From Bradyrhizobium ottawaense (GTDB lineage Bacteria; Pseudomonadota; Alphaproteobacteria; Rhizobiales; Xanthobacteraceae): a stretch of 64,000 nucleotides of DNA. Each line of letters starts with the position of its first letter. Position 1 is the stretch's first letter. Positions 14,272 through 29,025 of the stretch are shown in pieces. Below the pieces are notes generated by a model. That model worked only from the letters and a program-made list of their open reading frames with translations, was not told where the DNA came from and searched no databases. The translations under genes were made by a program, and so were the position numbers. The stretch spans positions 124,001 through 188,000 of the forward strand of contig NZ_CP029425.2 of the NCBI RefSeq assembly GCF_002278135.3. Reading direction: 5' to 3'.

Positions 14272-14518
14272 GACCTCTCAGGCTCTTGGGGTCATCAGCT
14301 TTGCCGACCTTTTCCCACCTAGCGACGACGGCTTCGGCCGCGAGCGCAGTGGACGTCGTTCGTAGCTCACCTGGCACCCGGGCAACGGCTGTCGGCGCGT
14401 AGCGCTTGCCTAAGCGACTGACAAAGCCAGCCGCCTCAAGCTCGCCGGCGATCTGAGTCGACCCGACGATCGATCTAGGCCATTCGGTACGCCATGAGCG
14501 CTGTGCCTCGGTTTTGTG
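14258..14518 (-). pseudogene. remnant of a large serine recombinase C-terminus (possible)
   Basis: Reverse-strand frame ending at a TGA (14258-14260) encodes about 85 residues without a start: it contains STQIAGELEAAGFVSRLGKR followed by YAPTAVARV, the recombinase-domain pattern 'I-x-x-E-L-x-x-x-G-(6)-G-x-x-(Y/W)-x-P-x-x-V-x-R'. No catalytic domain is present. It overlaps the 3' end of the LprI-like gene on the other strand and lies just outside the left island boundary. Likely debris of an earlier insertion. Confidence 0.35.
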
Positions 14519-14577: not shown

Positions 14578-14594
14578 TGGTGCCCAGGAAAGGA
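14578..14594. repeat. attL: 17-bp island attachment repeat
   Basis: TGGTGCCCAGGAAAGGA is identical to 28939-28955, the 3' end (CCA, discriminator, acceptor strand and part of the T arm) of tRNA-Leu. It marks the left border of the island. Identity stops at both sides (G versus A before, T versus C after). Confidence 0.9.
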
Positions 14595-14655
14595 TTGCCT
14601 TGGCAAAACTGCAAGCCGCTGATCTTTATGGGTTTTTACTCACGCTGTCGAGGCG

Positions 14656-14668
14656 TTGTTACACAGTC
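14656..14668. repeat. TTGTTACACAGTC, candidate integrase arm site (left)
   Basis: Identical 13-mer to 28863-28875, 61 bp inside attL. Two perfect 13-mers at matching distances from both island ends are unlikely by chance in one window. Confidence 0.4.
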
Positions 14669-14772
14669 TTGTTCACGCGACAAACCGGGGCCGGAGTTGT
14701 TTGATCTTCTTCGCTCAATTTTCCGTATACTCATCCTCTGAGAATCAAAGGGCATGGGTGGGGGAGCAGGAC

Positions 14773-15003
14773 GTGTCGGAAGACGAAGTTGGGCCAAGTC
14801 ATTTGGCGCGCGAGCCCGAGATAGCTGAGCCTGACTGGATCGCTAGCAGGATGGTTACCGCCATTTCGGACATGCCCATCCCGGCTAAGACAGCGGCTCT
14901 TCTCCAAAACGAAATGCGGGGGCCTCTGGCAGAACGCAGACTTTCCCACGGAGGGTTGGCAGTCCTAGCAGAGCAGTTGCTGAAAAGCCTTGGGGAAGCC
15001 TGA
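14773..15003 (+). CDS. small protein coupled to the SMC-like ATPase
   Basis: 76 residues from a GTG at 14773 with GGGGAG six bases upstream; the same frame extends to 14656 but without a ribosome site. Its stop overlaps the ATPase start as TGATG, so translation is coupled. The product is helical with no recognisable motif: an acidic N-terminus, then IPAKTAALLQNEM and a C-terminal LSHGGLAVLAEQLLKSLGE helix. Such small partners often regulate or load an ATPase in two-gene defence modules; here that is inference. Confidence 0.6.
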   Translation: MSEDEVGPSHLAREPEIAEPDWIASRMVTAISDMPIPAKTAALLQNEMRGPLAERRLSHGGLAVLAEQLLKSLGEA

Positions 15004-17333
15004 TGCTCGAAGAAATTGCGCTTAGCTGGTTTCGGGGCGCGTCAGCCAAGGTTTCGCTGGAGACGCAAAAAAAGAGCATCGTAGTTCACGGACCGAACGG
15101 ATCAGGGAAGTCGTCATTCGTTGACGGCATCGAATATCTGCTTTCTCAAGGCAGGCTTCAGCATCTCGCCCACACTTACAGTGGCCGCAGGCAAGAACTG
15201 GGAGTTATCAACATCGGAGCCGCGCCGGACGCAGATCGACACGTTGAGCTACGCTTTAAAGGTGTCTCGATTAAAGGGACCATTGCTCCGAACGGCGCTT
15301 GCATTGTCTCCAACCGGGAGATCATAGCGAACTGGAATTCTCGCCGTATCATCCTACGGCAGGACGAAGTGAGCGAATTCATCAAGGCAAGCGCAGGCGA
15401 TAAGTATTCTGTCTTGCTGCCGTTGCTCGGGCTGAGCCCTTTAGAGAACGTCGCCGTCAATCTCAGGGCTCTCGGGCGCAAGGTCTCCGAGATTGCGAGC
15501 TATACTCGGCTCCAAGATCGCCTCTCGCAATTAGAGCGCGATTGGCAAGCAAAGTTCGGATCGGATGATTGGGAGATCGTAAAGGAGAAGCTAAAGGCCA
15601 TCTATCGTGCACATATGCCGAATGGGTCAGAACCGACCAGCCTAAAGGCATTGGTGAATGAACTCAGGCCGGTGCTAGACAAGGTCGTAAGTGGTCTCCA
15701 ATCCGAACAGGCAGCTCACTTGGCAATTAGGACGGCCGCCGATCAGCCGCTTAAGAACCGTCTCAGCGAAGTTCAGCGTCTGGCAGGTGAAGCGCTGAAG
15801 CTTTCCGAACCGCTTATCGAGACTCGGCTCTCCATCCTTGAGAGCACCTACATATATGCAGAACAGCTTAACGCCGATGGCTCCGTCGATTGTCCCGCAT
15901 GCGGACAGAGCGTCCTAGCTAGCGATCTAAAGGCCCACGTCGCCCGTGAGAAGTTGCGGCTGGAGGCGGCTATCGCGATCTTTGGCGAGCGAAACGCGGC
16001 TCTGACTTTGCTTGCGGATAGCATCGCTATTGTTCAAAGCTGCCTCGGCCGCCCCGAACTGGAGGGTTGGCACAGTGCAGTCGCTGCCGGGCACATTAAG
16101 GAACACGTTAGCCAGGTTCGCGCTCTGCAGATCGACGCGCTCCGAGAGGGCAAGCTAGACGCATCCTCTACGGTGTTCACTAAAACCATCCACTGCATCG
16201 CAGATGAGCTTGAGAAAGCAGCAAACCACGTCCCACCCTCCATAGAGAAGCTCGTGGCCGATCTGGGGATGCTCGAAGCTGCGAGCCACTTCCCTGAGAT
16301 ACTGAGGCTCAAATCCAGGATTGAGCAAATCGGTGTGCTCACGAACTTCATCACGAGAATGGAGAACGAAACACGCGAAGAAATTAAAGCTCAAACGAAA
16401 TCGGTTGTTAAAGACATAAGCGACGATATTCAAATCATGTGGGCCGTTCTGCATCCTGCGGAGCCAATAGACGGCGTTCATCTCTACCAGCCGGACGGCC
16501 TAGACAAAGCCCTTGATATTGCACTGCGGTTCTATGGAAGAGAGCAGCTGAGCCCCCGACTGACCCTGTCAGAAGGTCACCGAAACAGTTTGGGTCTCTG
16601 CGTTTTTCTCGCCCTCGCGAAGCGCGACGGCAAGGACGGTCCACTTGTATTGGATGACGTCGTCAGTAGCTTTGATCGAGAGCACCGAAGTTATGTGACG
16701 GACCTCCTTTCTCAAGAGTTCTCCGACAGACAGATTTTTATCTTTACGCACGACTACGATTGGTTCGTAGAGCTTCGAACCCGCCTCGCGGCCAAACTTT
16801 GGCGCTTTAAGATTCTGTTGCCTTGGAAAGAGCCAGCTGTCGGGATTCGCTGGGCGACCAACGCCGGGGGATTTGATTTGGCTAGAGAGCTCCTAGAGAG
16901 CGATCCCGCGAGTGCTGCCGCAAAGGCACGGGCAGTAATGGACACGCAGCTAGCAGCAATTGCCGAGGTGCTCGGTGTTTTAGTGCCCTTCATAAAAGGA
17001 CCGAAAAATGACCTCAGATTCGCTGGCGATTTGCTGGAACGGCTCTCAAAAGATTGCGAACGCAAAATGCGAAGGAAAAGCGGTGACGAATACACGGCTT
17101 GGGATGTGCCTACACAGAAAGCCAAAGCAGCACATGGACTGTTGCTTCCATTTGCCAACGCCGGAACTCATGGGCGCTACGTCTCGAAGGGAGAGGCTGA
17201 GCGTTTGATCGATGCTTGCGAGGCAGCCATAGCGTCACTCAACTGCGAGACCTGCGAGCATCCCGTTTGGAATGCAGCCGTCAATGATCATCATCTAAGA
17301 TGTGACTGCGATGCTATCCGGTGGAAAATGTAG
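15003..17333 (+). CDS. SMC/Rad50-like ATPase with zinc-hook motif (candidate defence protein)
   Basis: 776 residues. Walker A GPNGSGKSS lies at 30-38. A predicted helical/coiled-coil arm follows, interrupted by a zinc-hook-like CPAC at 297-300, then a second arm. The ABC signature is LSEGH (522-526), Walker B LVLDDVVSSFD (548-558) and a switch-type histidine in FTHD (583). After the ATPase comes a further 190-residue domain with FANAGTHGRYVS (717-728) and a terminal cysteine cluster (CETC at 748-751, CDCD at 767-770). This architecture resembles RloC/AAA_13 and other RecF/SMC-like phage-defence ATPases, not housekeeping RecN, SbcC or SMC. No known nuclease motif is evident to me. First cargo gene of the island. 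Confidence 0.8.
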   Translation: MLEEIALSWFRGASAKVSLETQKKSIVVHGPNGSGKSSFVDGIEYLLSQGRLQHLAHTYSGRRQELGVINIGAAPDADRHVELRFKGVSIKGTIAPNGACIVSNREIIANWNSRRIILRQDEVSEFIKASAGDKYSVLLPLLGLSPLENVAVNLRALGRKVSEIASYTRLQDRLSQLERDWQAKFGSDDWEIVKEKLKAIYRAHMPNGSEPTSLKALVNELRPVLDKVVSGLQSEQAAHLAIRTAADQPLKNRLSEVQRLAGEALKLSEPLIETRLSILESTYIYAEQLNADGSVDCPACGQSVLASDLKAHVAREKLRLEAAIAIFGERNAALTLLADSIAIVQSCLGRPELEGWHSAVAAGHIKEHVSQVRALQIDALREGKLDASSTVFTKTIHCIADELEKAANHVPPSIEKLVADLGMLEAASHFPEILRLKSRIEQIGVLTNFITRMENETREEIKAQTKSVVKDISDDIQIMWAVLHPAEPIDGVHLYQPDGLDKALDIALRFYGREQLSPRLTLSEGHRNSLGLCVFLALAKRDGKDGPLVLDDVVSSFDREHRSYVTDLLSQEFSDRQIFIFTHDYDWFVELRTRLAAKLWRFKILLPWKEPAVGIRWATNAGGFDLARELLESDPASAAAKARAVMDTQLAAIAEVLGVLVPFIKGPKNDLRFAGDLLERLSKDCERKMRRKSGDEYTAWDVPTQKAKAAHGLLLPFANAGTHGRYVSKGEAERLIDACEAAIASLNCETCEHPVWNAAVNDHHLRCDCDAIRWKM

Positions 17334-17712
17334 CTGACAAGCAGCCGGAATTGCCTGAGGGTCTCCTTCGTGGCGGCGGCTAGCTGCTTTCCCCCCGCGC
17401 CCATTCTCCGAACTCTGAAAACAAACTCAGTGCGCCGCTCAACGTTCACGTTCTGCGAATGGTGCGGCAACAGCTCGGCCACCGGCACTAAGTTTTTCAC
17501 GAATTACCACAGAGAGAACTACGGTGAAGAGCCGAGTTGCTGCCTGCCATTGGGTGTCCACCCGCAAGTAAAACCCGCGAACGCTTGATCTCGCTAGCCG
17601 GTCGGACGGCCTGAACGCCTGCTATGGGTCACGAAACGAAGTTGCCGCCAAGCGGAACCGCTTAGTTCGAGGCGGCCGCATTGCGGCGCGCTCTACGCGC
17701 GTGCCCGCTGCC
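17334..17712. other. gap without a supported gene
   Basis: 379 bp between the converging ATPase and PIN genes. A 72-codon frame at 17370-17588 (+) contains a CEWCG pair but has no convincing ribosome site or family, so I do not call it. The rest shows no repeat or RNA. Confidence 0.4.
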
Positions 17713-18180
17713 TCAACTGGTCCAGTCCTCTCGCTCGATCAAGTCAGCCACGCCGCAATGATCGATCTTCTGCGCATCGCAAACATCCGGGATACGTTCC
17801 TTCCCCGGAAACTCTTCAGTCACAACCATCATCCGAGGGGTTGTGCTGGCCGCAAGCGCTATCACGAAGGGGTCACCGCCCGATCTGCCCTTGGTTGTGT
17901 CCACTATCTTGGGATGCTCGGCCATAATCTTTGCGACGGCTTCCTGAGTGGCATCATCAATTTCAACGAACAGTGTCTCTTTGCGCTCTTTGCACCAAAC
18001 GAAGAGTTCGTCGTCTTTTTTCTGAAGCTCGTTGTAGACTTCAATTGAAGCCTTTAGTCGGCCTTCAGCTATCAACCTGTCGAATCCATCCCACACAAAG
18101 CCGAAGTTCTTCGGTCGATAGATGCGCCGCCAAGCGTGGATAAGCGAACTGCTATCGATGCTGTAGACCTGACCGGCCAT
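17713..18180 (-). CDS. DUF4411 PIN-like protein (toxin candidate)
   Basis: 155 residues. The PIN-fold acidic residues are visible: YSIDSSSLIHAW (Asp9), a central EVYNEL (Glu51) and RSGGDPFVIALA (Asp103), followed by VVTEE. These match the DUF4411 subgroup, expected to be Mg-dependent ribonucleases. It starts 3 bp after the stop of the HTH-metallopeptidase gene on the same strand, the standard order for this pair. Likely toxin, with the upstream protein as regulator or antitoxin. Confidence 0.85.
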   Translation of the reverse strand: MAGQVYSIDSSSLIHAWRRIYRPKNFGFVWDGFDRLIAEGRLKASIEVYNELQKKDDELFVWCKERKETLFVEIDDATQEAVAKIMAEHPKIVDTTKGRSGGDPFVIALAASTTPRMMVVTEEFPGKERIPDVCDAQKIDHCGVADLIEREDWTS

Positions 18181-18183
18181 GCG

Positions 18184-19383
18184 CTATCCCAATCCGGCCG
18201 CTTTTGACAGCTTCGGGATGTGCTTCACTTTCAATCCGAGGTAGCCCGAAATCGCGCTAAGCGTCATTCGGTCCTGACGGTAGTTATTCAGGAGCATACG
18301 AACGAGAGGCTTGCCGAAGTGGCTCACCGTCTCCGTCGGCATGTTGCGTTTTATCTCTTTGGCCTGCTCTCGCTGACGTAACTGCTGCGCCCGATACTCC
18401 GCAATGTATTGAGCCCGCTTGCGCTCATAAAATGCCTGGGTCGTTCGATCGAACACTAACAGCCTTCGCAACACAGCTTCACGGCTGACATTGAAGCGCC
18501 GAGCTAGCTCGCTAACCTGCGCATCACCCCATTCTTCGGAACGGGCTCCTTGCTCCGTAACGCCTGGCTGCGCAAGCAAAGCATCTTTAGGCATCAAGGC
18601 TGCCGCAGCAACGTGATTGCAGAAAACCTCGATCCGCTGATCTTCCGGGGGTCGCCTCTCGTCTGTCTCCAAATTAGAGACGCCGCTGACGCGAACCATT
18701 AGATGCGCGAATTCGTGAAGCAGGCTAAATGTGCGCCGCGTGAGCGCATCCTTGCGATTTACGGAGATGACGGGTGAGACACCGGCAAATATCGCGAAGC
18801 CTGACGCCTCTTCACTAGCTAATGCCGTTGTTTGGAAGACCAAAGTGCCCGTTGCCTCAATGCGACTGCGCCAAGCATTGAACCCAGTGCGGCCGTCGGC
18901 ATCCCGCCAGTGAATTTGTAAATCATCAGTCACACCTAACGCGTCGCGAACGCGCTGACCTACCAATTCAGGGTCTTCGCTGATGTCCGCTTGCAAGGTA
19001 AACTTTGGGAATTCTTGGTCTAGGTCGGCTGCCAGCTCCAGCGCAAGTTCGCGGCGCTCCGTTGCTGCGCGGATTTCCAGTTGTAGGGCGGGTGATAAAT
19101 GACGCAGACCTGTTCCGGGCAATCTCCGGAGGTCGCGCATCACCTCAAATCTGCTCGGAGGCTCCGGCAGGTAAAAAACAGCCAACGGGCGCTTAAATAG
19201 GGCAGCCATTTTCCGCAGTTGCGGGATCGACGGCGACTCTTCGCGGTCAGGGTCTTCCCAATCCGTCAGCTTCGCTTGGTCAATGTCTAGGCGATCAGCA
19301 GCCTCAGCCAGCGAAAAGCCAGCCGTCTCCCTTGCCCATGTAACGAGGGCTGGGGCGATCAGAGCTTTCACGCGAGTTGCCAT
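18184..19383 (-). CDS. XRE-HTH / ImmA-IrrE family metallopeptidase (antitoxin-like regulator)
   Basis: 399 residues. An N-terminal helix-turn-helix (about 12-70: TWARETAGFSLAEAADRLDI...) is followed by a central domain and then the zinc-peptidase motif HEFAH (223-227) with the third ligand in IEVFCNHVAA (Glu252), as in COG2856/ImmA. The C-terminus has another helix-turn-helix-like stretch (VSELARRFNVSREAVLRRL). ImmA proteases cleave phage-type repressors; in the DUF4411 pairing the protein acts as the cognate regulator or antitoxin. A promoter likely lies in the AT-rich stretch just upstream of 19383. Confidence 0.88.
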   Translation of the reverse strand: MATRVKALIAPALVTWARETAGFSLAEAADRLDIDQAKLTDWEDPDREESPSIPQLRKMAALFKRPLAVFYLPEPPSRFEVMRDLRRLPGTGLRHLSPALQLEIRAATERRELALELAADLDQEFPKFTLQADISEDPELVGQRVRDALGVTDDLQIHWRDADGRTGFNAWRSRIEATGTLVFQTTALASEEASGFAIFAGVSPVISVNRKDALTRRTFSLLHEFAHLMVRVSGVSNLETDERRPPEDQRIEVFCNHVAAAALMPKDALLAQPGVTEQGARSEEWGDAQVSELARRFNVSREAVLRRLLVFDRTTQAFYERKRAQYIAEYRAQQLRQREQAKEIKRNMPTETVSHFGKPLVRMLLNNYRQDRMTLSAISGYLGLKVKHIPKLSKAAGLG

Positions 19384-20100
19384 TCTCTCTGCCTTTGAGA
19401 ATTCTCTATAATATACAATCGTGAAGAAGTTTCAGCCAAATGCCCGGCTGGCCTGCATGGGGCGGCGCTGCAAGTTCGCTTTCCTACACGCGTCGGGAAA
19501 TGGCGTTCTGACAATCGCGCTAGGCAAAGTGCCATTGTCGATTTACGGCCAGATAATTACGCCTACAGACCTGGGGTTCCGGCAGCGCCAATCGCGCATC
19601 GCACAACCACTGCTCCGCTGGCATTCGGTATCTTGATTGGATGGGAAGCGAGGTGTTGCTCGTCTCGGCGGCGCTGAGCTTAGTTGCGCTTGCCGCTTTT
19701 TTCGCAGTTAGAAAGAAGAATTAAGGCAGAGGCCGCACCGCGCACCGGGCGGAATAATATAGGGTCACAAATCTAACGGGTGACCTCGTGTCAGCGGCGC
19801 GGCGATTTCCCCCGTCCCCCACCCCCAGCTTGTCTCCAGGGCATTCCCACGAGCGACGACTTGATGTCGTTGAGTTGCGCCCGCCTGATCGAGCCGGGGC
19901 ATTGGCCCTTCCTCCTAGCCAGCAAGGGTTCCGAAAACCCTGCTCTAAGCGGCCTTAGGCCAGCGCTGATTTTCCTGCGTTTTTTTCAATTCCCCCTGAG
20001 GTTCAGAAAACACTTGTTTTTAGAACAACTTCGGCAGCTCAGAAGCTGTTGATTACTACAAAACTTGCTGGTAGTAAGATTTGCAGATTTGGAGTTAGCA
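19384..20100. other. 717-bp region with no confident gene
   Basis: Lies between the divergent metallopeptidase gene and the RAMA-like gene. Short frames here have weak support: a GTG frame 19421-19636, and a 27-residue frame 19641-19724 encoding a single hydrophobic helix followed by RKKN. The right end is AT-rich and contains CAGCTCAGAAGCTG, a short inverted repeat about 60 bp before the RAMA-like gene that could be an operator. Confidence 0.4.
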
Positions 20101-20523
20101 ATGCGCAATATCCCGATAACGACCGACGTGTTCGCCGCCATTTGGCAGGCCCGTAAGGAAGGCGAGGAATCCGAAGACGCGATCCTGCGGCGGATACTCG
20201 GTCTTCCAGCCCAAACCGCTCCCGAGGTCACGGGCGGCCGCCGAGGAGGCTTCTATGACGAACGAAGCGGGGTGCACTTTCCGGAGGGAAGGGAGATTTA
20301 TCGGACCTATAAGGGGCATAAAGTTGAAGCCGTTGCTCATCTCGACAGATGGTTCGTGAGGGCCACCGGCCAGTCGTTTCATTCCCTTCACAAGCTCAGC
20401 CAAGCGATCAACAACGGGAAGCAGGAGAATGCCTGGCTGAACTGGAAGTATCGTGATCCAGACACCGGCGAGGAACACCTGATCGATCACCTCCGCAAGA
20501 CGCAGGGGGCGAGCGAATCATGA
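20101..20523 (+). CDS. RAMA-like domain protein
   Basis: 140 residues from the ATG at 20101; the frame runs up to 20065 but the upstream part is weak. The N-terminal 35 residues (TDVFAAIWQARKEGEESEDAILRRIL) resemble a short DNA-binding or RHH-like helix pair. The C-terminal half (EIYRTYKGHKVEAVAH... ATGQSFHSLHKLSQAINNG... AWLNWKY) matches the RAMA pattern, a small domain found with restriction methylases and DNA-modification systems and thought to bind DNA. Its stop overlaps the recombinase start as ATGA. First gene of a five-gene tight cassette. Confidence 0.7.
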   Translation: MRNIPITTDVFAAIWQARKEGEESEDAILRRILGLPAQTAPEVTGGRRGGFYDERSGVHFPEGREIYRTYKGHKVEAVAHLDRWFVRATGQSFHSLHKLSQAINNGKQENAWLNWKYRDPDTGEEHLIDHLRKTQGASES

Positions 20524-21131
20524 ACAAGCGTGTCGCGATTTATCTTCGTGTCTCCACCGCGGAGCAGACCACAGAAAACCAACGGCGAGAGCTTATGGCA
20601 GTAGCCGAGCGCAGCGGGTGGCAGGTCGTGCATGTCTTCGAAGACGCAGGCGTCTCGGGCTCCAAAGGGCGCGACCACAGGCCCGCTCTGGCTGCCATGA
20701 TGAAAGCGGTCAATCGACGCGAGATTGACATCGTGGCTGCATGGTCCGTTGACCGATTGGGTCGATCGCTGATCGACCTCATTGAGGTGCTGAAGGACCT
20801 GCACGCAAAGGGCGTCGACTTGTTCCTGCATCAGCAGGGCCTCGACACTTCCACTTCGTCCGGCAAGGCGATGTTTCAGATGCTGGGCGTCTTCGCAGAA
20901 TTTGAACGTGCGGTGATCCGCGAGCGCGTGATCGCAGGCCTAGCGAGAGCAAAGGCCGCCGGCACCAAGTTGGGCCGGAAGCCTATAGACGATGGAAAGG
21001 AAGCGAGCATCAGGTCGCTCCTCGCCGAAGGGCAAGGCGTTCGGCGCATCGCGCGAAGTCTCCATGTCGGGGTGGGAACGGTGCTCCGGGTTCGTGACCA
21101 CCAAGCAACAAGCGTGAGTGCAGCAGAATGA
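20520..21131 (+). CDS. small serine recombinase (resolvase/invertase family)
   Basis: 203 residues, typical of Tn3-type resolvases and Hin/Gin invertases. Catalytic Ser12 sits in YLRVSTAEQ; the other signature parts are VHVFEDAGVSGSKGRDHRPAL, AWSVDRLGRSL and the long E-helix region AEFERAVIRERVIAGLARAKA. A C-terminal helix-turn-helix (VRRIARSLHVGVGTVLRV) binds the site. It overlaps both neighbours by ATGA-type junctions (20520-20523 and 21128-21131), so it is translated with the RAMA-like gene and the unknown downstream. It could resolve or invert DNA for the island cassette; no crossover site was identified. Confidence 0.95.
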   Translation: MNKRVAIYLRVSTAEQTTENQRRELMAVAERSGWQVVHVFEDAGVSGSKGRDHRPALAAMMKAVNRREIDIVAAWSVDRLGRSLIDLIEVLKDLHAKGVDLFLHQQGLDTSTSSGKAMFQMLGVFAEFERAVIRERVIAGLARAKAAGTKLGRKPIDDGKEASIRSLLAEGQGVRRIARSLHVGVGTVLRVRDHQATSVSAAE

Positions 21132-21853
21132 ATGTGCTAGCTCGAGTAAATACCGTGGACGCGGATGCGATCCTTAAACGATGTCTGGACTATCTAGGCC
21201 AAGCCGAAGAGTTCCGGGCGGGCCGCCGCAAAGAGCTGCCCGACGCCAGTCTCCTTGCCAAGCCATTTGGCTGCATCCTTGAGGCAAGAGCTGATGGGGA
21301 AGATCTATTTAATCTCGGAACTCCATTCGTTGCCGCCAAAATCGAGGACCTTGATGCACCGGATGAGGAGCGAAGGGAGCGATACTTCGATCCATGGGAT
21401 TATGCGTTGATGCTGGTGATGTTGTTAGCTGGTGCTCGCTTCCGATTCGACCGCTCGAAATACGCTCGTTACTACTTCCTTGCGTATGTCGGTCTCGTCG
21501 GGAAGGTGGGCAATCACTCCCTTCGCCGAATCATCATGAATCCGCCGCCAGGGTCGGATGTCCGACAAACACGCAGGACCCCGGACGCCCATCTCGACTA
21601 TCGCCGCGCCGGCCTTAAAGCGATCGCCAAGCGCGTCGTCAGAAAGCTGGGACAGAAGACGCGGTCTCACTCTCGTGGGCGCGAGGATTCCATCGCATTT
21701 GCCGTTGAGCTTTTCGCGCGGCAACTAGCAACCCATGGCGCAGACAGATTGCTGGGCCTGAATGTCGCGGACTATGAGGCACTCCTGCGCCGCGCGTTAG
21801 CTGTTGCTGATGCGATGCACAGTGCACTTCATGACCTGAAGGCCGGTCAGTAA
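21128..21853 (+). CDS. unknown protein of the recombinase/polymerase cassette
   Basis: 241 residues, soluble and basic, no recognised motif. The middle contains FDPWDYALMLVMLLAGARFRFD and YYFLAYVGLVGKVGNHSLRRIIMNPP, hydrophobic but broken by charges, and the C-terminal third is helical (FAVELFARQLATHGADRLLGL). Starts inside the recombinase stop codon and ends 1 bp before the next gene, so it belongs to the same transcript. Function unknown. Confidence 0.75.
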   Translation: MNVLARVNTVDADAILKRCLDYLGQAEEFRAGRRKELPDASLLAKPFGCILEARADGEDLFNLGTPFVAAKIEDLDAPDEERRERYFDPWDYALMLVMLLAGARFRFDRSKYARYYFLAYVGLVGKVGNHSLRRIIMNPPPGSDVRQTRRTPDAHLDYRRAGLKAIAKRVVRKLGQKTRSHSRGREDSIAFAVELFARQLATHGADRLLGLNVADYEALLRRALAVADAMHSALHDLKAGQ

Positions 21854-21854
21854 G

Positions 21855-22649
21855 ATGGCCCGCTCCCCGCACGGGCGGCGTAAGCGCATCGGCAAGCTCA
21901 GGGCGCGTGTTAGCTCAGACGCCGACGATCACTTTCTCAGATGCACTATCATCGGGTGTGGGCGGTCGACAGCACGCGCCGCGAAACAGGGATTGAGCGC
22001 CACCCTTTGCCGCAAGCATTTGCTTCACCGGCAGCGGCATGGGTCTGCATGGTGTGCAACCCCGGCGGCTACTGCCCTCAGGCCCTATGTTCGAGCGGCT
22101 CGTTCGTTCATCCGCTTGAATCGTGCTGATCCTTACGTCAGCCACGCGCTTACCGCCCTTGGAGTTCTCATGGCGTCGGCTGGTCCGGCCGAGATCGGGT
22201 CGCGGCTCCGTGGCCTTCCCGCAGAGCGCCGCGCCAGAATCGCGTTAGCGAGGCTCCGTGAAGCTGGCATCCATCCCGAGCGGCTTCTTGCCATCACGAT
22301 CGCTGTGCACTCGCTTATTGAAGAGGCCCCTCAGGTCGTTCACCGGATCAGGGAATGGCGCATCGTGGCCATTGCCAAAGGCTGTCATCGACTCGCCAGT
22401 GTTTACCGGCCCTGGACGTTTATCGGAGCAGATGGCCGAGTTCGCCGCGCTGCGATTCAAGCCTATCCGCGAAGTGCCGGCCGCGTGCTGCGCTATCTCG
22501 GTGAAATGATCGAGCGCGAGAGTGAGTGGGTAATCGAGAAGCACTTAGCTGGGGTGCTTGCGCTCAAGGTTGCTAGATACGGCGCCCACCCTGCCACTAC
22601 CAACTCGCTGAAATTCGCCACTGCGGCCGGCCCTCACGCCCACCTATGA
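21855..22649 (+). CDS. zinc-finger-like protein of the recombinase/polymerase cassette
   Basis: 264 residues. A very basic N-terminus leads to C30-x4-C35...C52-x2-H55 (CTIIGC ... LCRKH) followed by RQRHG, the compact zinc finger often found at the front of phage and HNH-type proteins. The remainder is helical and Arg-rich (ERRARIALARLREAGIHPERLLA), suggesting nucleic-acid binding. Begins 1 bp after the previous stop, ends 10 bp before the polymerase-like gene. Function unknown; a DNA-binding accessory is my best guess. Confidence 0.72.
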   Translation: MARSPHGRRKRIGKLRARVSSDADDHFLRCTIIGCGRSTARAAKQGLSATLCRKHLLHRQRHGSAWCATPAATALRPYVRAARSFIRLNRADPYVSHALTALGVLMASAGPAEIGSRLRGLPAERRARIALARLREAGIHPERLLAITIAVHSLIEEAPQVVHRIREWRIVAIAKGCHRLASVYRPWTFIGADGRVRRAAIQAYPRSAGRVLRYLGEMIERESEWVIEKHLAGVLALKVARYGAHPATTNSLKFATAAGPHAHL

Positions 22650-22659
22650 AGTTTCCCCG

Positions 22660-24069
22660 ATGGCACTTTCGCGAGAGATCACCTCCGGCAGTGGCGGTGC
22701 ACACATCTTGAAGGCCTTGCCCGATCACATCACGCCGGGCCCAAAGCGGCGCCGGCTGGTCCCGATTCGCTGCGAGCCCCGCTGGCGTGCCGCCTCCCCT
22801 TCGTTGCAGCAAGAGGTCGCCCGGCTCATCGAATTGCTGACGAAGCAAGAGCCGCCAAGACAACGCCGCCGCCGACCGAGAGATGCAGCCACGTTCCACC
22901 TCGCCATTGAGTGCATAGCGTGCAATCTACTGGCGGTTTCGCTGGCTGCTCCCGAAAGACCCCTTGCGATCACGTTGGCTAACTGCGCTTCGCGGCTTAC
23001 TCCGATCTTCGGCAAGCCCGCTCGCAAAGTGATAGACCTGATGATCGGGCTGGGGCTCATTACCAAAGTAAAGGGCTACCCCTATCGCGGCCCCACGACG
23101 ATCCAAGCCACGCCGAGACTTCGTGAGCGCTTGTCGTTGGGGCGGATCAAATGGAGTGCGTTACGACTTGAAAACAATACTGAGGTGTTGGTCCTCAAGA
23201 GCGGTAGCAGAGACAAGCCGACCGAGGATCTTGATACCGATGCGATCCCAACTCGCAGCGCGAGCGCCATGGATAAAGAGCGGCTCGATTCGCTTGCTGA
23301 AGATGTGCGGAGCATCAACGCAGCAATCCTCGAAGCACCTATCGAATGCTATCGAACCGCGATGGCGCATGTCAGCGAACGTCCCGGAGCGGCGATGGCG
23401 AGTTTGATGACATTGCACCACCTGAGCCTAAGGCGGATTTTCAACGGCTCGTGGCACGAAGGCGGTAGACTATTCGGCGGTTTTTGGCAGACCATGCCAA
23501 GGCCGGACCGGTTCAAGCACCTTCGCATCGCGGGTCAGGATATCGGTCTGGTCGACTACGGCCAGGTATTTCTTCGGATTGCATATGCCGAGGCTGGTTC
23601 AACGCCAGAGCCTGGCGACCTCTACGACCTAACCGGGCAGGACACCCTTAGGCCGGGCTGGAAGCCCCTACGCGACGCCCGCAAAAAATTGGTCAACGCA
23701 CTTTTCTTTCGAAGGGCACCGCTCAAACAATGGCCGGGTGCAACGCTTGCCGAGGTGGCCCAAATACGCAGCGCCTTTCAGCGAGGAACAAAGCCTAGCG
23801 ACGCCATTCAAGCAATCAAAGACAAGCATGCGCCGATCGCTCATTTATTCGAACGGGGGCACGGCCTCCGCTTCATGCGGATTGAAGGTGATCTTATTGT
23901 GGCTGTAACGCTGGCCTTATTCAGGCGCGGCGTGTTTTCTCTTCCAATTCACGACGCCGTGGCCGTGCCTAGAAGCGACGTAGAAGTGGCGGCGACAGTA
24001 ATGCGGGCAGAGGCTAGGCGGGCTATCGGCGCCGATGTCCCGGTTGAAATTCAATTCGCCGTGAGATGA
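22660..24069 (+). CDS. family A DNA polymerase-like palm protein
   Basis: 469 residues. The C-terminal half carries the landmarks of DNA polymerase I: motif A as LVDYGQVFLRIAYAE (Asp299, Arg306; compare DYSQIELRI), a possible O-helix/motif B as R338-x3-K342 ending in Phe349-Phe350, and motif C as LPIHDAVAVPRSDVE (His431-Asp432; compare VHDELVFEV), followed by the pol I-like tail helix and PVEIQF strand. There is no 3'-5' or 5'-3' exonuclease region; the N-terminal half has a winged-helix-like stretch (ARKVIDLMIGLGLITKVKGYPYRG) and WHEGGRLFGGFWQTMP before motif A. Likely a stripped-down replicase or repair polymerase of the mobile cassette. The motif match is visible; activity is inferred. Confidence 0.68.
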   Translation: MALSREITSGSGGAHILKALPDHITPGPKRRRLVPIRCEPRWRAASPSLQQEVARLIELLTKQEPPRQRRRRPRDAATFHLAIECIACNLLAVSLAAPERPLAITLANCASRLTPIFGKPARKVIDLMIGLGLITKVKGYPYRGPTTIQATPRLRERLSLGRIKWSALRLENNTEVLVLKSGSRDKPTEDLDTDAIPTRSASAMDKERLDSLAEDVRSINAAILEAPIECYRTAMAHVSERPGAAMASLMTLHHLSLRRIFNGSWHEGGRLFGGFWQTMPRPDRFKHLRIAGQDIGLVDYGQVFLRIAYAEAGSTPEPGDLYDLTGQDTLRPGWKPLRDARKKLVNALFFRRAPLKQWPGATLAEVAQIRSAFQRGTKPSDAIQAIKDKHAPIAHLFERGHGLRFMRIEGDLIVAVTLALFRRGVFSLPIHDAVAVPRSDVEVAATVMRAEARRAIGADVPVEIQFAVR

Positions 24070-24396
24070 ATGACGCGTGTTTTGTTTTAAGTCGCGACGG
24101 TTCAGCTTACCGTTCCTCTATAGCAGCTCGAAGGGGGGAACTCAGAGGATTCAAATTCGCAGGTTCATCGCAGGAGACTCTCGGCTACCTTCAAGTGAAA
24201 GGGCGACACCACCCCTCTTCCATTGTGACCCCTAGTGCGGCCTCTAAGGACCACCCTTCACCAGCCCTGAAGGTCACCTTCAAGCTCGGGTGAGTGACCA
24301 CCACCCCTCCTACATGGCCCCCTCAAAGGACAACCCTAAGACTAACCCTTCGGTCTCCTTCATAGGGCCGAACCATGTGGGCGGACCACGCCGGTC
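24070..24396. repeat. region with degenerate CCACCCCT/AAGGACAACCCT repeats
   Basis: Two imperfect copies of about 50 bp, one near 24208-24255 (CACCACCCCTC...CTAAGGACCACCCTTC) and one near 24299-24345 (CACCACCCCTC...CAAAGGACAACCCTAAG). The strand is strongly pyrimidine-biased. A 75-codon frame starting inside the polymerase stop (24066-24293) crosses the first copy but has no motif, so I do not call it a gene. Could be an iteron-like or regulatory region behind the polymerase-like gene. Confidence 0.4.
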
Positions 24397-24528
24397 TCAA
24401 TTGATCCTCTGACGCAGCTTCCTGATGATCTCGCGGAGGTCGTCGGCATACTCCTCAATGATGCGTCGAGCCTCCTCCATGCGCGTCGGCTTGGGCGTCG
24501 GGCGTTTCTCGGGCTCAGGCTCGTTCAT
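24397..24528 (-). CDS. 43-residue charged small protein
   Basis: ATG at 24528, stop TGA at 24397-24399. The product starts with Pro/Glu/Lys-rich sequence (MNEPEPEKRPTPKPT) and ends in a single amphipathic helix with alternating acidic and basic residues (MEEARRIIEEYADDLREII). An AAGG lies very close upstream of the start. No function recognised; the ordered composition suggests it is a real gene. Confidence 0.5.
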   Translation of the reverse strand: MNEPEPEKRPTPKPTRMEEARRIIEEYADDLREIIRKLRQRIN

Positions 24529-24639
24529 GCCTTAGGCTCGGCAAGAGGACGACGGTGGTCATTGAGCTAAATCAACGGTCCTATTCGGCCGAACCTGAGG
24601 TCCGGTGCTAAAAGTGACCTGCCTGTCACCGGACGAGAT

Positions 24640-24882
24640 TCAGGCCTGAACCCGGGCCCTCTTCTGAGGGACAAGCAACCGGTCAGGGGTCGTCTTCAGG
24701 GCGCGAGCCAAGCGGGCCAGGACGATGATGGTGCAGTTACGGGTGCCCCTCTCGACCTGACTGACGTAGGTCCGATCTAGCCCCGCCTCTAGGGCCAAAT
24801 CCTCTTGGGACAACCCGAGACCCTTGCGGGCCTTCCGCACGGCCGCCGCCACCACGTCAACGATGCCTGTCTCGTCGTCCAT
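24640..24882 (-). CDS. XRE-family transcriptional regulator
   Basis: 80 residues, essentially one Cro/C1-type helix-turn-helix: VRKARKGLGLSQEDLALEAGLDRTYVSQVERGTRN followed by the fourth and fifth helices and LLVPQKR. The GLDRTYVSQVERG recognition helix is textbook. Stand-alone size suggests it controls nearby island genes, possibly its own promoter or the divergent membrane-protein gene at 25002. No operator is obvious. Confidence 0.88.
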   Translation of the reverse strand: MDDETGIVDVVAAAVRKARKGLGLSQEDLALEAGLDRTYVSQVERGTRNCTIIVLARLARALKTTPDRLLVPQKRARVQA

Positions 24883-25001
24883 CCACGGGAGCAGGCCGTC
24901 ATGATGACTTCCGGTCTACGGACTATGAGTCCCATTTTTCCGTTGAGGCGCGATGACTATCGTCTACACTTGCGACCGTCCTTTCATGAAGGAATGCAGG
25001 A

Positions 25002-25427
25002 ATGACAAGCACCGAGACCACAGTCCCGAGCGCCCGCGAGCCCGAGCCCGTCAAGGACCTTTTCGATATCCTTAGCATCGGTGCGACGCTCTGGGGCTTT
25101 GTCGCGCTATGCGTCTGGGCCGAATCCGAGGGGATGACAGCGCTGGGTCTCCCGGACACGCCTCGGATATCTCTCGCGGGTGTCAGCGCGATTGCCCTGT
25201 TCATCTACGCTGGTGAGCGCCTCAAGAAGGACCAACGAGTGCAGCGGTTCGTTGAGCAAATTCGTTATGTTGTGATCCTAGCCGCTGCGGTCTTGCTCGG
25301 GGCCTATCTTCACGCAAACCACAAAGACGATTCGTATGAGAGTGCCCTGCGTGATGGCGCTGTGCTGGCCTGCTCAAAGATGGCGGCCTGCAAAACGGCA
25401 GCAACGGAATATGCCAACACGCGTTAG
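25002..25427 (+). CDS. small inner-membrane protein of unknown function
   Basis: 141 residues with three likely membrane helices (about 25-42 ILSIGATLWGFVALCVWA, 57-70 LAGVSAIALFIYAG, 88-105 YVVILAAAVLLGAYLHA) and a short C-terminal tail with two cysteines (ACSKMAACK). Ribosome site AGGAATGCAGGA precedes the start. Divergent from the XRE regulator. No family recognised. Confidence 0.65.
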   Translation: MTSTETTVPSAREPEPVKDLFDILSIGATLWGFVALCVWAESEGMTALGLPDTPRISLAGVSAIALFIYAGERLKKDQRVQRFVEQIRYVVILAAAVLLGAYLHANHKDDSYESALRDGAVLACSKMAACKTAATEYANTR

Positions 25428-25430
25428 GAG

Positions 25431-25850
25431 CTAAATCGATATCGGCTTGGGAGACAACGCTTCGCCGCCTTTGTCTTGAGCCTCGTCAGGCTGCCGGTTC
25501 GGCCAGATCGCGTCGATAGTCCGGCTTAGCATTTCAATCGCGCACGGCTTACGCAACACGGGCCTGCCCTTGAATTGCTCCGGCACCCCACCGGAGCCAT
25601 AGCCGCTCAGAAAAAAGAACGGTAGTCCCCGAGCCGCGATTGCTTCCGCTACTGGCTCAACATTGGAGCCCTGCAAATTGATATCGAGAATGGCAAGATC
25701 GTATCGCTCGGTCTCAGCAAGCGAACGCGCCTGATCCAGATGCCCCGCTTCGACGACAACCTTATGGCCAAGCTCCTCGACCATTTCGACGAGCATCATC
25801 CGAATTAGGGCTTCATCTTCGACTAGAAATATCGACGCTGGGCGGTCCAC
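25431..25850 (-). CDS. stand-alone response regulator receiver protein (second of pair)
   Basis: 139 residues from a GTG at 25850, 8 bp after the first receiver gene; the frame continues upstream to 25979 but that part overlaps the neighbouring gene. Receiver landmarks: FLVEDEALIRMMLVE (acidic pocket), YDLAILDINLQG (phosphoacceptor Asp) and LPFFFLSGYG / RPVLRKPC (Thr/Ser and Lys switch). There is no output domain, and a Lys/Gln-rich tail ends the protein. Probably a CheY-like or RpfG-unrelated signalling adaptor. Confidence 0.85.
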   Translation of the reverse strand: MDRPASIFLVEDEALIRMMLVEMVEELGHKVVVEAGHLDQARSLAETERYDLAILDINLQGSNVEPVAEAIAARGLPFFFLSGYGSGGVPEQFKGRPVLRKPCAIEMLSRTIDAIWPNRQPDEAQDKGGEALSPKPISI

Positions 25851-25858
25851 GGCAGTTC

Positions 25859-26266
25859 TCAGTTGCCGGATGCCGGCCCCGGGCCGACATTCAAAAGCTG
25901 CGAGATGGCTGTTACGATTTGCGCGGGCGCAAAGGGCTTCCGAAGAAGGATGCTGTTCGGAACACCCAGGATGGCCCACTCGTCAGCAGCGGCGCCGGTC
26001 ATGTAAACCACAGGGAAGTTCGGATCAACTTCGCGGGCCGCGCGAGCGACCTCCCAACCATTAAACCGACCTAGCAAATTGATATCTGTGACGAGGGCGC
26101 TGTAGTTGGTCTGACGCCCCTTCAGCAGAGTAACCGCTTCCTCACCCGTTCGCGCAGTCGCTGGCTCGAAGCCGCCCTCGTTCAACACGTCCGCGACCAC
26201 ACCTTGAACTGCTTCATCGTCCTCGACGACAAGGACAGTCGGTAATTCCACGAACTCCCCCTCCAT
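25859..26266 (-). CDS. stand-alone response regulator receiver protein (first of pair)
   Basis: 135 residues. Receiver landmarks: TVLVVEDDEAVQGVVADVL, YSALVTDINLLGRFNGW (phosphoacceptor Asp), FPVVYMTGAAADEW and LLRKPFAPAQI (switch Lys). No output domain. Followed after 8 bp by a second receiver gene. No histidine kinase is encoded on the island, so a host kinase (HWE/HisKA_2 types are common in rhizobia) would have to drive it. Confidence 0.88.
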   Translation of the reverse strand: MEGEFVELPTVLVVEDDEAVQGVVADVLNEGGFEPATARTGEEAVTLLKGRQTNYSALVTDINLLGRFNGWEVARAAREVDPNFPVVYMTGAAADEWAILGVPNSILLRKPFAPAQIVTAISQLLNVGPGPASGN

Positions 26267-26330
26267 AACTCGCTCCGCCCGAACGTGACAAAGTGGACAG
26301 AAGGAAAAAGTTCCGCAAGGGAACAGAAGA

Positions 26331-26657
26331 TTACGTTGGCCCGGTCGGGGGCGGCCGTCTCTTGTTCCCTTTGGCTTTCTGCCGCAGGAAGCTTACCGAG
26401 ATCTCCTCGCCGTTGACGCGGTCGAGCTGGCAGCGACGATAGGCAAGGCCCGTGCAGGAAAGCAGCAAGAAGAACTCTGTCAGAGCCAACCCTTCGATCG
26501 ACGTTTCAACTTGAAGTGTCGCGTTGGTTTCTGACACATCCTTGATGGTGCATGAGCGCCGCCAAGTGCCGTCGATCGCCATCATATGCGCGGGGAGCGC
26601 ATGCTCGAAGGTGACGCGTCGTCCCTCCTGTTCCGTTTCTTTTGTCATTGCCGGCAC
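26331..26657 (-). CDS. PilZ-domain-like protein
   Basis: 108 residues from a GTG at 26657, or 105 from the ATG at 26648. It contains a basic GRRVTFEHALPAHMMAIDGTWRRSCTIKDVSETNATLQVE, matching the small rhizobial PilZ group (R...D-x-S-x-x-G/A pattern), and YRRCQLDRVNGEEISVSFL. PilZ domains usually bind cyclic di-GMP; the key RxxxR and DxSxxG motifs are only partly kept, so binding is uncertain. Sits upstream of the receiver pair on the same strand. Confidence 0.7.
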   Translation of the reverse strand: MPAMTKETEQEGRRVTFEHALPAHMMAIDGTWRRSCTIKDVSETNATLQVETSIEGLALTEFFLLLSCTGLAYRRCQLDRVNGEEISVSFLRQKAKGNKRRPPPTGPT

Positions 26658-26911
26658 TCAGATCGTTTTCGTAGCTCCTAATATGAAATCGACTAAGGGC
26701 TCGTAACCGAATTTGGGAAAAAGCAGCAAAGACGCGCCCCCGAACCGGAGCATCTCCACAAAGTCTTAATTGCTTTCAGCCCACCTTCGGACTGTTCTGC
26801 CGACGACTCCCTAAGACTGCTCGCGGAAATCGGTAAGCCCGCCGCGCGGAAATTTATCGCGGGAACAAGTTGCAATTGGGGGCGTTAGGGCGCGTTGTTG
26901 GGGGAATCACC

Positions 26912-27115
26912 GTGCCGACCGCTGACTACTATTTGAAGCAAGCCGAAATCGCGTCCCGGATGGCACTGTCAGAGCCCGACTCTGAAAAAGCGAGAGCCAT
27001 GCATATCCTCGCCTTGGACTATTTCGACAAGGCCTACCGTGCGCAGATGATCCGAGAAGCGTCGCCACCCGACCCCACCAACTCATCCAACATCATCCAC
27101 TTGAGACGGCCATAG
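26912..27115 (+). CDS. small orphan protein
   Basis: 67 residues from a GTG at 26912, preceded by a strong GGGGGA six bases upstream; the frame is open to 26870. The product is a helical hairpin (DYYLKQAEIASRMALSEPD, then AMHILALDYFDKAYRAQMI) with a short disordered tail. Small proteins of this type are common in Bradyrhizobium; function unknown. Confidence 0.6.
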   Translation: MPTADYYLKQAEIASRMALSEPDSEKARAMHILALDYFDKAYRAQMIREASPPDPTNSSNIIHLRRP

Positions 27116-27191
27116 TTGTCGGTTCGGATGTCACCGCCTGACCCGAAGCAGTCCTCCGGGACCGTTACGGTTTTTGTCGGTTAACGGTGCC

Positions 27192-28850
27192 TTATGCGAC
27201 CTCGATGGTGGGAAACTTGGCAATGGCGTTCGCCTTCGCCTTAATGGTCACGTCTCCGTAGCCCTCAGAGACGTTGCGCGGCGCATGTCCCTGAATGGCA
27301 TCCAGAACCCGCGTCTCAACGCCTTGCTCAATGCCGACCGTCTTGAAGCGATGGCGCCAACCGTGGCTTGGATCAACGTTCTTATCCTTCACCACCTCAC
27401 GCACGAGTTCGTTGACCTTGTTACGCGCCGTCTTCACCGCGTTGCGCACCCCTAATTCACCGGCCTTGGGATCGATGAAGAGATAGCCCCCCTTCGACTT
27501 CTCAAAGAATTCCAAGAAGCCTTCCTGAATGACCTGCCGATGGAGCACGACATCACGCGCTTCGTCCGTCTTCACCGGCCCAGCTTCGGGCGTCACATGC
27601 AGCACCCAGAGCTTCCCCTCGCGCCGAACGTCCTCCTTGCGAAGCTGGATCATCTCGCCCACGCGGGCGCCCGTGAAGGCGCATAGCCACGGCACCCACC
27701 GTTTGGCCGCTGCCAGCTTCGGGGCTTCCCGGCCGGGCACGAACTCGCGGGCATGCTTCAGAATTGCAATAGCCTCGGAATCATAGAACCCTTTTGGCCT
27801 GAGCTTGCGCGACTTGCCGACCTTGATGGTGATCCCTTCGGCCGGATTGCTGGACAGCCGGCGATTGACCACCGCCCAGCCAAACACCGTCTTCATCCCA
27901 GCGAGGTCGCTATCCTTCACGGTCTTCGGGCTCACGCCGCTCTGCACGCGATAGTCCTTGAAGCGGACGATGTCCTCGGGCGTCACCCGGCTCGCCGTGT
28001 CGTGCTTCAGGAACGTGACAAGGCGGGCAATCGAGTTGCGATAGCTCTCATAGGTGCTCTGCTTGCGGCCGGCCAGCTTGGCTTCCTTCCACCAGTCCTC
28101 GACCAGCCCGGTGAGGGAATGCTTGGAGGCTCCGCGCTTTAGCTTCTCTTTCGGCGCACCCTCAGGCGCCTGCCAGTCCGGGAAGCGGGCGGCCTTGGGG
28201 TCCGGCGCATAATCCCCTCCCGCATTGCGCTGACGGCTCATGAAGGCGTCTCGCAGCGCCATCCAAAAAGCGACAAGCAACACGGCGCGCGATTCGCTGT
28301 CCACGCGGCGAATGCCCTTGGTCAGCAAGAGGCGGTCCACGATAGGGCCAAGCGGCTTCTCCAAGTGCTTGGGGTCGCCATCCTTGCCGACCTTCTCCCA
28401 CATCGCGACAACGGCCGCCCATTGCACTTCCTGCTCGTCCTGGCTGTCGGTATCTGGCGCCCAGCCAACTCCGGGCGTGTGCACCATGGCGACACTCCGG
28501 GCGCGGCTCTCGCTGTCCGCCCAAACGCGATAGAGGTCGCCCGCCAAGGCCGTCGCCTGTCGGTGGCTCAGATGCAGGGGGGCTTCATTGCGGAGAGCTT
28601 GCCAGACGCCCTCCAGATAGGCGGCCGCAATGGCGTTAAGCGTCTTGGCCTCACTGGGATCGGCAGTGCGGAGGGAGAAACGAATGGCTTGGGTGCTCTC
28701 GCTGGGCGTCACGAAAACGAAGCTATCGCCCAGCGGGATTGCGAGTTCGACACCGATTACTTTGCGGCGGACATCAGCGGGGATGCGCTGAGCGAACCAC
28801 TTGTTTTGAGACCCGTCCCGGCGCATCGGCCGAACAACCCTGAACAGCAA
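27192..28850 (-). CDS. tyrosine site-specific integrase of the island
   Basis: 552 residues from a TTG at 28850, which keeps the family N-terminus (FRVVRPMRRDGSQNKWFAQRIPADV); an ATG at 28826 is the alternative. After an arm-binding region and a SAM-like core-binding domain (about 245-335), the catalytic set is complete: Arg396 (TGARVGEM), Lys427, His496 and Arg499 (HGWRHRF), His522 (GHAPRNVS) and the nucleophile Tyr531. It sits immediately inside the right border next to tRNA-Leu, the standard place for the recombinase that uses the tRNA 3' end as attB. Confidence 0.95.
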   Translation of the reverse strand: MLFRVVRPMRRDGSQNKWFAQRIPADVRRKVIGVELAIPLGDSFVFVTPSESTQAIRFSLRTADPSEAKTLNAIAAAYLEGVWQALRNEAPLHLSHRQATALAGDLYRVWADSESRARSVAMVHTPGVGWAPDTDSQDEQEVQWAAVVAMWEKVGKDGDPKHLEKPLGPIVDRLLLTKGIRRVDSESRAVLLVAFWMALRDAFMSRQRNAGGDYAPDPKAARFPDWQAPEGAPKEKLKRGASKHSLTGLVEDWWKEAKLAGRKQSTYESYRNSIARLVTFLKHDTASRVTPEDIVRFKDYRVQSGVSPKTVKDSDLAGMKTVFGWAVVNRRLSSNPAEGITIKVGKSRKLRPKGFYDSEAIAILKHAREFVPGREAPKLAAAKRWVPWLCAFTGARVGEMIQLRKEDVRREGKLWVLHVTPEAGPVKTDEARDVVLHRQVIQEGFLEFFEKSKGGYLFIDPKAGELGVRNAVKTARNKVNELVREVVKDKNVDPSHGWRHRFKTVGIEQGVETRVLDAIQGHAPRNVSEGYGDVTIKAKANAIAKFPTIEVA

Positions 28851-28862
28851 TGTTACACCCCA

Positions 28863-28875
28863 TTGTTACACAGTC
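28863..28875. repeat. TTGTTACACAGTC, candidate integrase arm site (right)
   Basis: The 13-bp sequence is identical to 14656-14668. Each copy lies inside the island, about 62 bp from the 17-bp core repeat. A shorter TGTTACACC is found just 13 bp away at 28851. Placement fits arm-type integrase sites; binding is inferred. Confidence 0.4.
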
Positions 28876-28938
28876 GGGGCCAACGCAACACTCTGATCGG
28901 GCTTATCTATCTGGATTTGTTTGGCATCCAGAAAAGTA

Positions 28939-29025
<87 letters not shown>

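Follow-up and report, generated by a model that had tools for sequence, protein, structure and literature searches.

A putative TV-Pol/divPolA2-type family A polymerase on a tRNA-Leu island of Bradyrhizobium ottawaense

An integrative island at tRNA-Leu(CAG)

We found the gene of a putative family A polymerase of the TV-Pol/divPolA2 type on an integrative island in the window, that is, in the whole 64,000-nucleotide stretch of Bradyrhizobium ottawaense DNA analysed here. The gene (22660..24069, forward strand) is an open frame with an ATG start and encodes 469 residues, the length also given in an earlier sequence-only reading of the locus. The island (14578..28955, about 14.4 kb) ends at a tRNA-Leu (cag) gene (28939..29025, reverse strand), its integration target, and a tyrosine integrase gene (27192..28850, reverse strand; PF00589, E 2.1e-9) adjoins the 3' end of this tRNA. 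The 17 bp at the tRNA 3' end (28939..28955, forward strand) recur identically as a far attachment repeat, TGGTGCCCAGGAAAGGA, at 14578..14594 (forward strand), and the 8.59-Mb genome, a single contig, contains no further exact copy. The tRNA region was matched in 60 genomes of the same genus, seven of which were taken by hand for a comparison of the site, and the island was absent from six of these seven. In the six empty sites, window sequence runs to about 13.42 kb, is followed by 82-688 bp and continues from about 28.9 kb onward, with a single copy of the attachment repeat. The repeats and the empty sites thus mark 14578-28955 as an integrated island, which bears out the earlier proposal of an island-borne enzyme of a mobile element.

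The seventh genome (G242) carries a related integrase at the same tRNA-Leu and a polymerase gene of its own, 36% identical to that of the window; the 17-bp repeat, exact in sequence, brackets this gene with a spacing of about 21.6 kb. Its loci (L198, L199) show modular exchange, with 87% DNA identity in the integrase region and the window stretch from 24.6 to 25.4 kb kept at 76%. Just outside the far attachment site of the window, a 48-nt piece (14285-14332) is 83% like part of the integrase gene (28368-28415); because of this integrase-like piece, the stretch from 13.43 to 14.58 kb may derive from an island that occupied this tRNA earlier.

The polymerase gene is the last in a same-strand run of nearly abutting or overlapping genes. 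This run starts with a 152-aa ORF (20065..20523, forward strand), which weakly resembles RAMA (19.6 bits, below the cut-off of 35.2), has no relative among the neighbour genes surveyed and overlaps by 4 nt the start of a small serine recombinase of the resolvase type (20520..21131, forward strand; PF00239, E 8.7e-47). It continues with a 241-aa protein (21128..21853, forward strand) that has no significant Pfam match, clear homologues at loci L147 and L149 and weak ones at L167 and L140, and with a 264-aa protein (21855..22649, forward strand) that has no Pfam match and whose N-terminus we read, by eye from the alignment, as Cys/His zinc-finger-like. A consensus scan revealed no strong promoter directly upstream of the run (20065-24069).

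Several further genes of the island resemble defence genes. The best PADLOC match of a 776-aa SMC/RecF-like ATPase (15003-17333, forward strand) is LmuB of Lamassu (E 6.5e-27), and a 115-aa ORF (14656-15003, forward strand) touches its start, so that the two possibly form a Lamassu-like defence pair. At 17713-19383 (reverse strand), a DUF4411 protein adjoins a regulator of the XRE/ImmA-IrrE peptidase type (capP/RmrA-like in PADLOC), and this pair looks toxin-antitoxin- or defence-like. Two overlapping response-regulator ORFs (25431-26266, reverse strand) lie near the integrase within the island, and no histidine kinase family was matched in Pfam among the scanned island ORFs. A prophage remnant was rejected as an explanation of the island, as the 16 of its ORFs that were scanned gave no match to a phage structural family and as phage and viral relatives of the polymerase branch apart.

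Homology to DNA polymerase I

The polymerase-like protein (P0001) has 54 homologues at E <= 0.001, with identities of 26-94%, and its motifs are thus more than a chance resemblance. The nearest named homologue is a Bradyrhizobium frederickii protein (90% identical), copies from other sources are 90% and 94% identical, and the UniRef name of one relative (P0163) begins 'DNA-directed DNA polymerase family A'. We aligned the protein with 39 of the 54 homologues and with 60 ORFs drawn from loci in genomes, plasmids, phages and viral contigs, which gave 100 rows that may include the same protein entered twice from two sources, two duplicate ORFs having been removed beforehand. Arg270, Arg284, Asp299 and Tyr322 are invariant in all rows, and Lys342 and Asp432 (99 rows each), Arg338 and His431 (98 each), Gly269 (97) and Asp320 (94) are nearly so.

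Along the protein, an N-terminal domain (about 37-205) is followed by a hairpin with Arg270, read as such from its alignment with TGRL of PolA, by motif A at Asp299, the first residue of DYGQVFLRIA, by Asp320/Tyr322, by Arg338-x3-Lys342 with Phe349-Phe350 downstream, and by motif C at His431-Asp432, contained in LPIHDAVAV. The family A motifs A, B and C named in the sequence-only reading (Asp299, Arg338-x3-Lys342, His431-Asp432) are thus kept in 98-100 of the 100 rows. Its description of the protein as reduced to palm/fingers was right only in part, since some 170 further residues (37-205) are conserved and aligned in most rows of the family. That reading also saw no exonuclease domain, in agreement with our finding of no exonuclease or nuclease family in Pfam, which misses the polymerase domain too.

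Searches with the single sequence gave no match in Pfam, NCBIfam or PDB, and none in PADLOC at E 0.01; no Pfam family was matched by more than one of 40 family members. That no library recognises the protein as a polymerase by sequence alone would be expected of a catalytically dead or decaying gene. Such a relic is hardly credible given the intact frame, the presence of all conserved catalytic positions, the 90% and 94% identical copies elsewhere and the strict conservation across deep divergence.

Kinship to DNA polymerases emerged from the comparison of profiles, a check that the earlier reading had proposed. With hhalign, a palm/fingers profile of the 100 rows aligned to 59 family A DNA polymerases (T7 gp5 and 58 enzymes of bacterial genomes) with its motifs in register, namely GGRL with TGRL, VDYGQVFLR with ADYSQIELR, Arg338-x3-Lys342 with RRAAK of the O-helix, and IHDAV with VHDEL of PolA. 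The local score was 42.4 (P 3.6e-5, probability 71%) and the global score 37.5 (P 5e-7, probability 87%). Column-shuffled profiles (100 shuffles) reached a local mean of 15.7 and maxima of 22.7 local and 11.3 global, and the reversed profile scored 11.0 and 8.3, respectively; a chance match of the motifs is ruled out by the shuffle control. Against a pooled set of 65 DNA polymerases, T7-type enzymes included, the global P was 1.3e-7, and 21 T7-type DNA polymerases alone gave no match with the wide profile (local P 0.067). The widening to 100 rows and the palm cut were chosen after a weak result with 40 rows, and the shuffle control refers to the final setting only: The narrower 40-row profile reached P 0.028 and a probability of 1.8% against PolA, with motif A in register as its top segment, and found no polymerase in PDB.

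By these alignments, the protein is homologous to PolA, with its predicted catalytic set intact. It shares with DNA polymerase I (PF00476) the motifs A, B and C in register and the TGRL/GGRL hairpin, and differs from it in the lack of a Pfam match by single sequence and of a detected exonuclease family, in Phe304 at the equivalent of Glu710, and in HDA instead of HDE. The host genome carries a separate full PolA elsewhere, and the island protein is therefore an addition; a replacement of the host PolA is ruled out.

The departures from Pol I bear on the nature of the product. In E. coli Pol I, the steric-gate Glu710, Glu883 and the O-helix Tyr have known roles, and the motif C of T7 RNA polymerase, IHDS, has no second carboxylate. 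We take Phe304, five residues after Asp299, to stand in the place of the steric-gate Glu, and Phe350 in that of the O-helix Tyr. The first of these positions holds Phe in 47 and His in 17 of the 86 bacterial rows, and His in 12 of the 14 phage or viral rows; the second holds Phe in 51 and Asn in 22 of the bacterial rows, and Asn in 13 of the phage or viral ones. The residue after the HD of motif C is Ala (as in P0001), Ser or Gly in nearly all rows and Glu in 2 of the 100. From the residues at these places, the choice of sugar is thus not readable from the sequence.

It is unlikely, in our view, that the protein is a single-subunit RNA polymerase or an RNA-making primase of T7-like chemistry (PF00940), which would transcribe island genes or lay RNA primers. 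HDA, or HDS in many relatives, resembles the IHDS of T7 RNA polymerase in lacking the second carboxylate, Phe or His replaces the steric-gate Glu, and the segment that scores best in local profile comparison with RNA polymerases coincides exactly with motif C. The available part of Yutin et al. (PMC11348598) also leaves an RNA polymerase role open for the related phage protein divPolA2. Yet the whole palm/fingers aligns with the PolA-containing sets (global P 1.3e-7 and 5e-7), whereas the match to 22 T7-type RNA polymerases covers motif C only (27 columns, P 0.015), with nothing aligned outside it by the profile built here. This contrast is a weak one, since T7-type DNA polymerases alone fail equally (P 0.067) and since, as a control, the RNA polymerase profile built here also failed to find DNA polymerases.

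Relatives in tRNA islands and tailed phages

Of 296 genomes sampled from the family, 25 carry a homologue, as do 24 of 398 sampled from the phylum, 23 of these 24 belonging to the same class (the genome of the window is counted in both samples). Our survey of their neighbours comprised 43 distinct loci with seven genes on either side of the polymerase. From the 27 matches of the family sample, the window itself, G185, G237, G091 and G064 were left out, and from those of the phylum sample G704, G445, G471, G064, two further contigs of G465 and three genomes already covered; L151, which duplicates L034, was removed. A tyrosine integrase of one cluster lies within seven genes of the polymerase at 26 of the 43 loci, and at 20 loci the integrase is at most 300 bp from a tRNA. 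Homologues of the serine resolvase were present at 19 loci. The zinc-finger protein has homologues at 17 loci, directly upstream of the polymerase and on the same strand at 14, and was not found within seven genes at the other 26.

Exact repeats of tRNA 3' tails (16-72 nt) bracket the polymerase gene at 16 or more of the 43 loci, with spans of 7.7-14.1 kb and with tRNA-Leu, Phe, Thr, Val, Cys, Ala or Gln as targets. This count of at least 16 is a lower bound, because the search for ends covered stretches of at most 19 kb and accepted tRNA tails only as exact 16-nt matches. Among the 16 bounded islands, 15 contain the integrase, seven the resolvase and four the zinc-finger protein; with these counts, and with the zinc-finger protein missing at 26 loci, neither of the latter two is a universal partner of the polymerase.

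In the bounded islands, the 85 other ORFs include type I restriction-modification, OLD/AAA, CAP12-TIR, ResIII and transport genes, and no relaxase, portal or terminase is among the matches listed (25 of 41 families). In the wider set of neighbours at the related loci, 139 ORFs were picked and 135 scanned, three very long and one short having been left out; the 25 families listed of 72 include at least one Phage_portal and at least two Sf6-type small terminases, and some loci thus adjoin prophage genes. A further table of such matches lists 25 of 239 families, and all these tallies thus cover the first 25 families and leave rare genes out of view.

Such cargo, together with the Lamassu-like ATPase and the XRE/ImmA-DUF4411 pair of the window island, could point to a polymerase that is part of the anti-phage genes or controls them, as a defence or counter-defence enzyme outside the mobility core. 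We regard this as quite improbable: no PADLOC model is matched by the protein at E 0.01, the cargo varies among islands that share the polymerase (although the loci were selected by the polymerase), and relatives of the protein are present in large tailed-phage genomes.

The sequence-only reading had considered the protein not previously assigned, which the literature contradicts. The TV-Pol group was defined in 2008 by Iyer, Abhiman and Aravind through a hairpin Arg, two Asp, a fingers Asp with RxxxK and a thumb of two antiparallel helices, with no fused nuclease domain (PMC2579912). Their alignment includes many alphaproteobacteria, e.g., Rhodopseudomonas and Methylobacterium, and they describe a subset with a helical N-terminal domain (TV-PolN) whose genes lie beside a gamma-delta resolvase, a lambda-type integrase or a transposase (PMC2579912). 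The P0001 family has the absolutely conserved hairpin Arg, the two palm Asp, and the fingers Asp with RxxxK, and shares with this subset a length of 400-600 aa and, in the window island, an adjoining serine resolvase and tyrosine integrase; its extra N-terminal domain may correspond to TV-PolN. Linkage to a D5-like helicase marks another, viral subset of TV-Pol and is no requirement for the resolvase subset (PMC2579912). Near our polymerase genes, D5_N was absent within 20 kb and present in 9 of 38 genomes, positions being compared by hand. Iyer et al. proposed replicative transposons, with one example flanked by direct repeats of about 200 nt (PMC2579912), whereas short tRNA repeats beside a tyrosine integrase are found here; the likeness is one of described features only. 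We found no match to the family in the initial 50 kb of Microcystis phage Ma-LMM01 (162 kb), which these authors named.

A phage branch was named divPolA2 in 2024, and for it Yutin et al. modelled AUR84708 and described an active palm domain (PMC11348598, available part). The island protein matches phrog_4756 of PHROGs, annotated as of unknown function, at E 1.9e-15, and AUR84708 (in MG592441) matches both phrog_4756 (E 1.8e-91) and the profile of the P0001 family (E 3.4e-17). In AUR84708, the aspartates of motifs A and C and the RxxxK align with Asp299, Asp432 and Arg338/Lys342, and Phe replaces His431. To the fold check proposed in the sequence-only reading, this relative with a modelled palm gives an indirect answer. 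The profile of the bacterial rows and that of the phage rows can be aligned along the greater part of both (P 3.6e-47). For the N-terminal part, profile comparison gave P 9.2e-7 and a probability of 91% over 121 columns; singly, 8 of the 14 phage or viral rows pass the inclusion threshold, AUR84708 remaining below it (E 0.17), and the N-terminal parts of P0001 and divPolA2 are probably related.

While divPolA2 belongs to the same profile family, with its catalytic set aligned, it is encoded in tailed phages instead of a chromosomal tRNA island, and most phage rows show His in the steric-gate place and Asn at the position of Phe350 in P0001. In a midpoint-rooted tree, the 14 phage or viral rows fall outside a 70-row clade containing P0001, and the node uniting them has a support of 0.65 and includes one bacterial row. 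The available part of PMC11348598 draws no connection between divPolA2 and chromosomal islands, and in the portions of the literature that we searched there was no published link of these island proteins to divPolA2; the link is a result of the present sequence analysis. Given the TV-Pol residues and the homology to divPolA2, the protein is not of an unassigned kind. It appears to belong to the TV-Pol/divPolA2 group and thus to be a good new example of a known, almost untested kind of polymerase, not a new kind.

A possible role on the excised island

The closest functional guide is CCPol, which Iyer et al. placed in TV-Pol (PMC2579912). With dNTPs it elongates primers of DNA as well as RNA, in complex with its partner MP it primes DNA, and it was, to its authors' knowledge, the sole TV-Pol-placed enzyme assayed by 2020 (PMC7581432, available part). 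Like the gene studied here, the CCPol gene of SCCmec encodes a family A polymerase within a recombinase-driven cassette and adjoins a small partner gene; the partner there is SSB-like with an OB fold, and the pair is joined by a helicase (PMC7581432, PMC10061031, available parts), whereas the window has a zinc-finger-like neighbour and no nearby D5 helicase, the two systems being likened by description only. Because of this analogy with CCPol, we consider P0001 most likely to be a primase-polymerase or a primer-extending replicase for the excised island.

Our preferred explanation, to which we assign a probability of roughly 55%, is thus a family A polymerase of the TV-Pol/divPolA2 group that resides on a 14.4-kb island at tRNA-Leu(CAG) and primes and/or extends DNA synthesis on the excised circle. 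The island would integrate at this tRNA by means of its own tyrosine integrase. After excision, the enzyme would make DNA, with its N-terminal domain binding the template, and would prime and/or extend synthesis on the circular island, either in its replication or in the conversion of incoming single strands. The zinc-finger protein could perhaps act as a partner where it is present, the host would provide the helicase, the resolvase would separate multimers and the integrase would reinsert the island. The homology, the motifs and the island are observed, and what we infer is the activity, DNA as its product, a part in island replication and the pairing with the zinc-finger protein. In its favour stand the conserved motifs, the profile matches to PolA and divPolA2, the separate PolA of the host, the close run of same-strand genes, the attachment repeats with their empty sites, and the fact that the gene recurs in compact islands at tRNAs, where 15 of the 16 with known bounds have a related integrase. 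Against it stands the helicase that accompanies CCPol in the available part of its description (PMC7581432), D5_N being absent within 20 kb of the polymerase here (38 genomes). Phe304 in the steric-gate place, the missing second carboxylate of motif C and the patchy occurrence of the zinc-finger protein and the resolvase also count against it.

The absence of an adjoining D5 helicase would equally suit a polymerase that fills gaps or repairs DNA during excision and integration, or at sites of damage, and is neither primase nor replicase. Recombinases are often near (integrase at 26 and resolvase at 19 of the 43 loci), and the available part of Yutin et al. (PMC11348598) states that the phages concerned have a regular polymerase in addition to divPolA2. 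We nevertheless deem a repair enzyme improbable, as the host already has a full PolA and as the additional N-terminal domain, conserved in the family, points to a specialised role at the template.

More tentatively, and with considerable doubt, the compact tRNA islands (about 8-14 kb) might form a class of their own, whose members replicate, carry defence genes and are possibly akin to satellites. Their sole replication enzyme would be the polymerase, which would serve as a primase-polymerase and lack a dedicated replicative helicase, the zinc-finger protein would take the role of MP in some of them, and the tailed phages would hold the other branch of the enzyme. The island proteins, joined here with phage divPolA2 and tied to precisely bounded tRNA islands, offer a clean test object for minimal family A polymerases and their capacity to prime, to copy DNA or to make RNA. 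They likewise allow a test of autonomous replication in small islands that carry defence genes.

Among phages, the protein of Vibrio phage K354 has relatives in 240 of 50,697 phage records. ICP1 is one of these, and the match there covers two annotated hypothetical ORFs (99 and 100).
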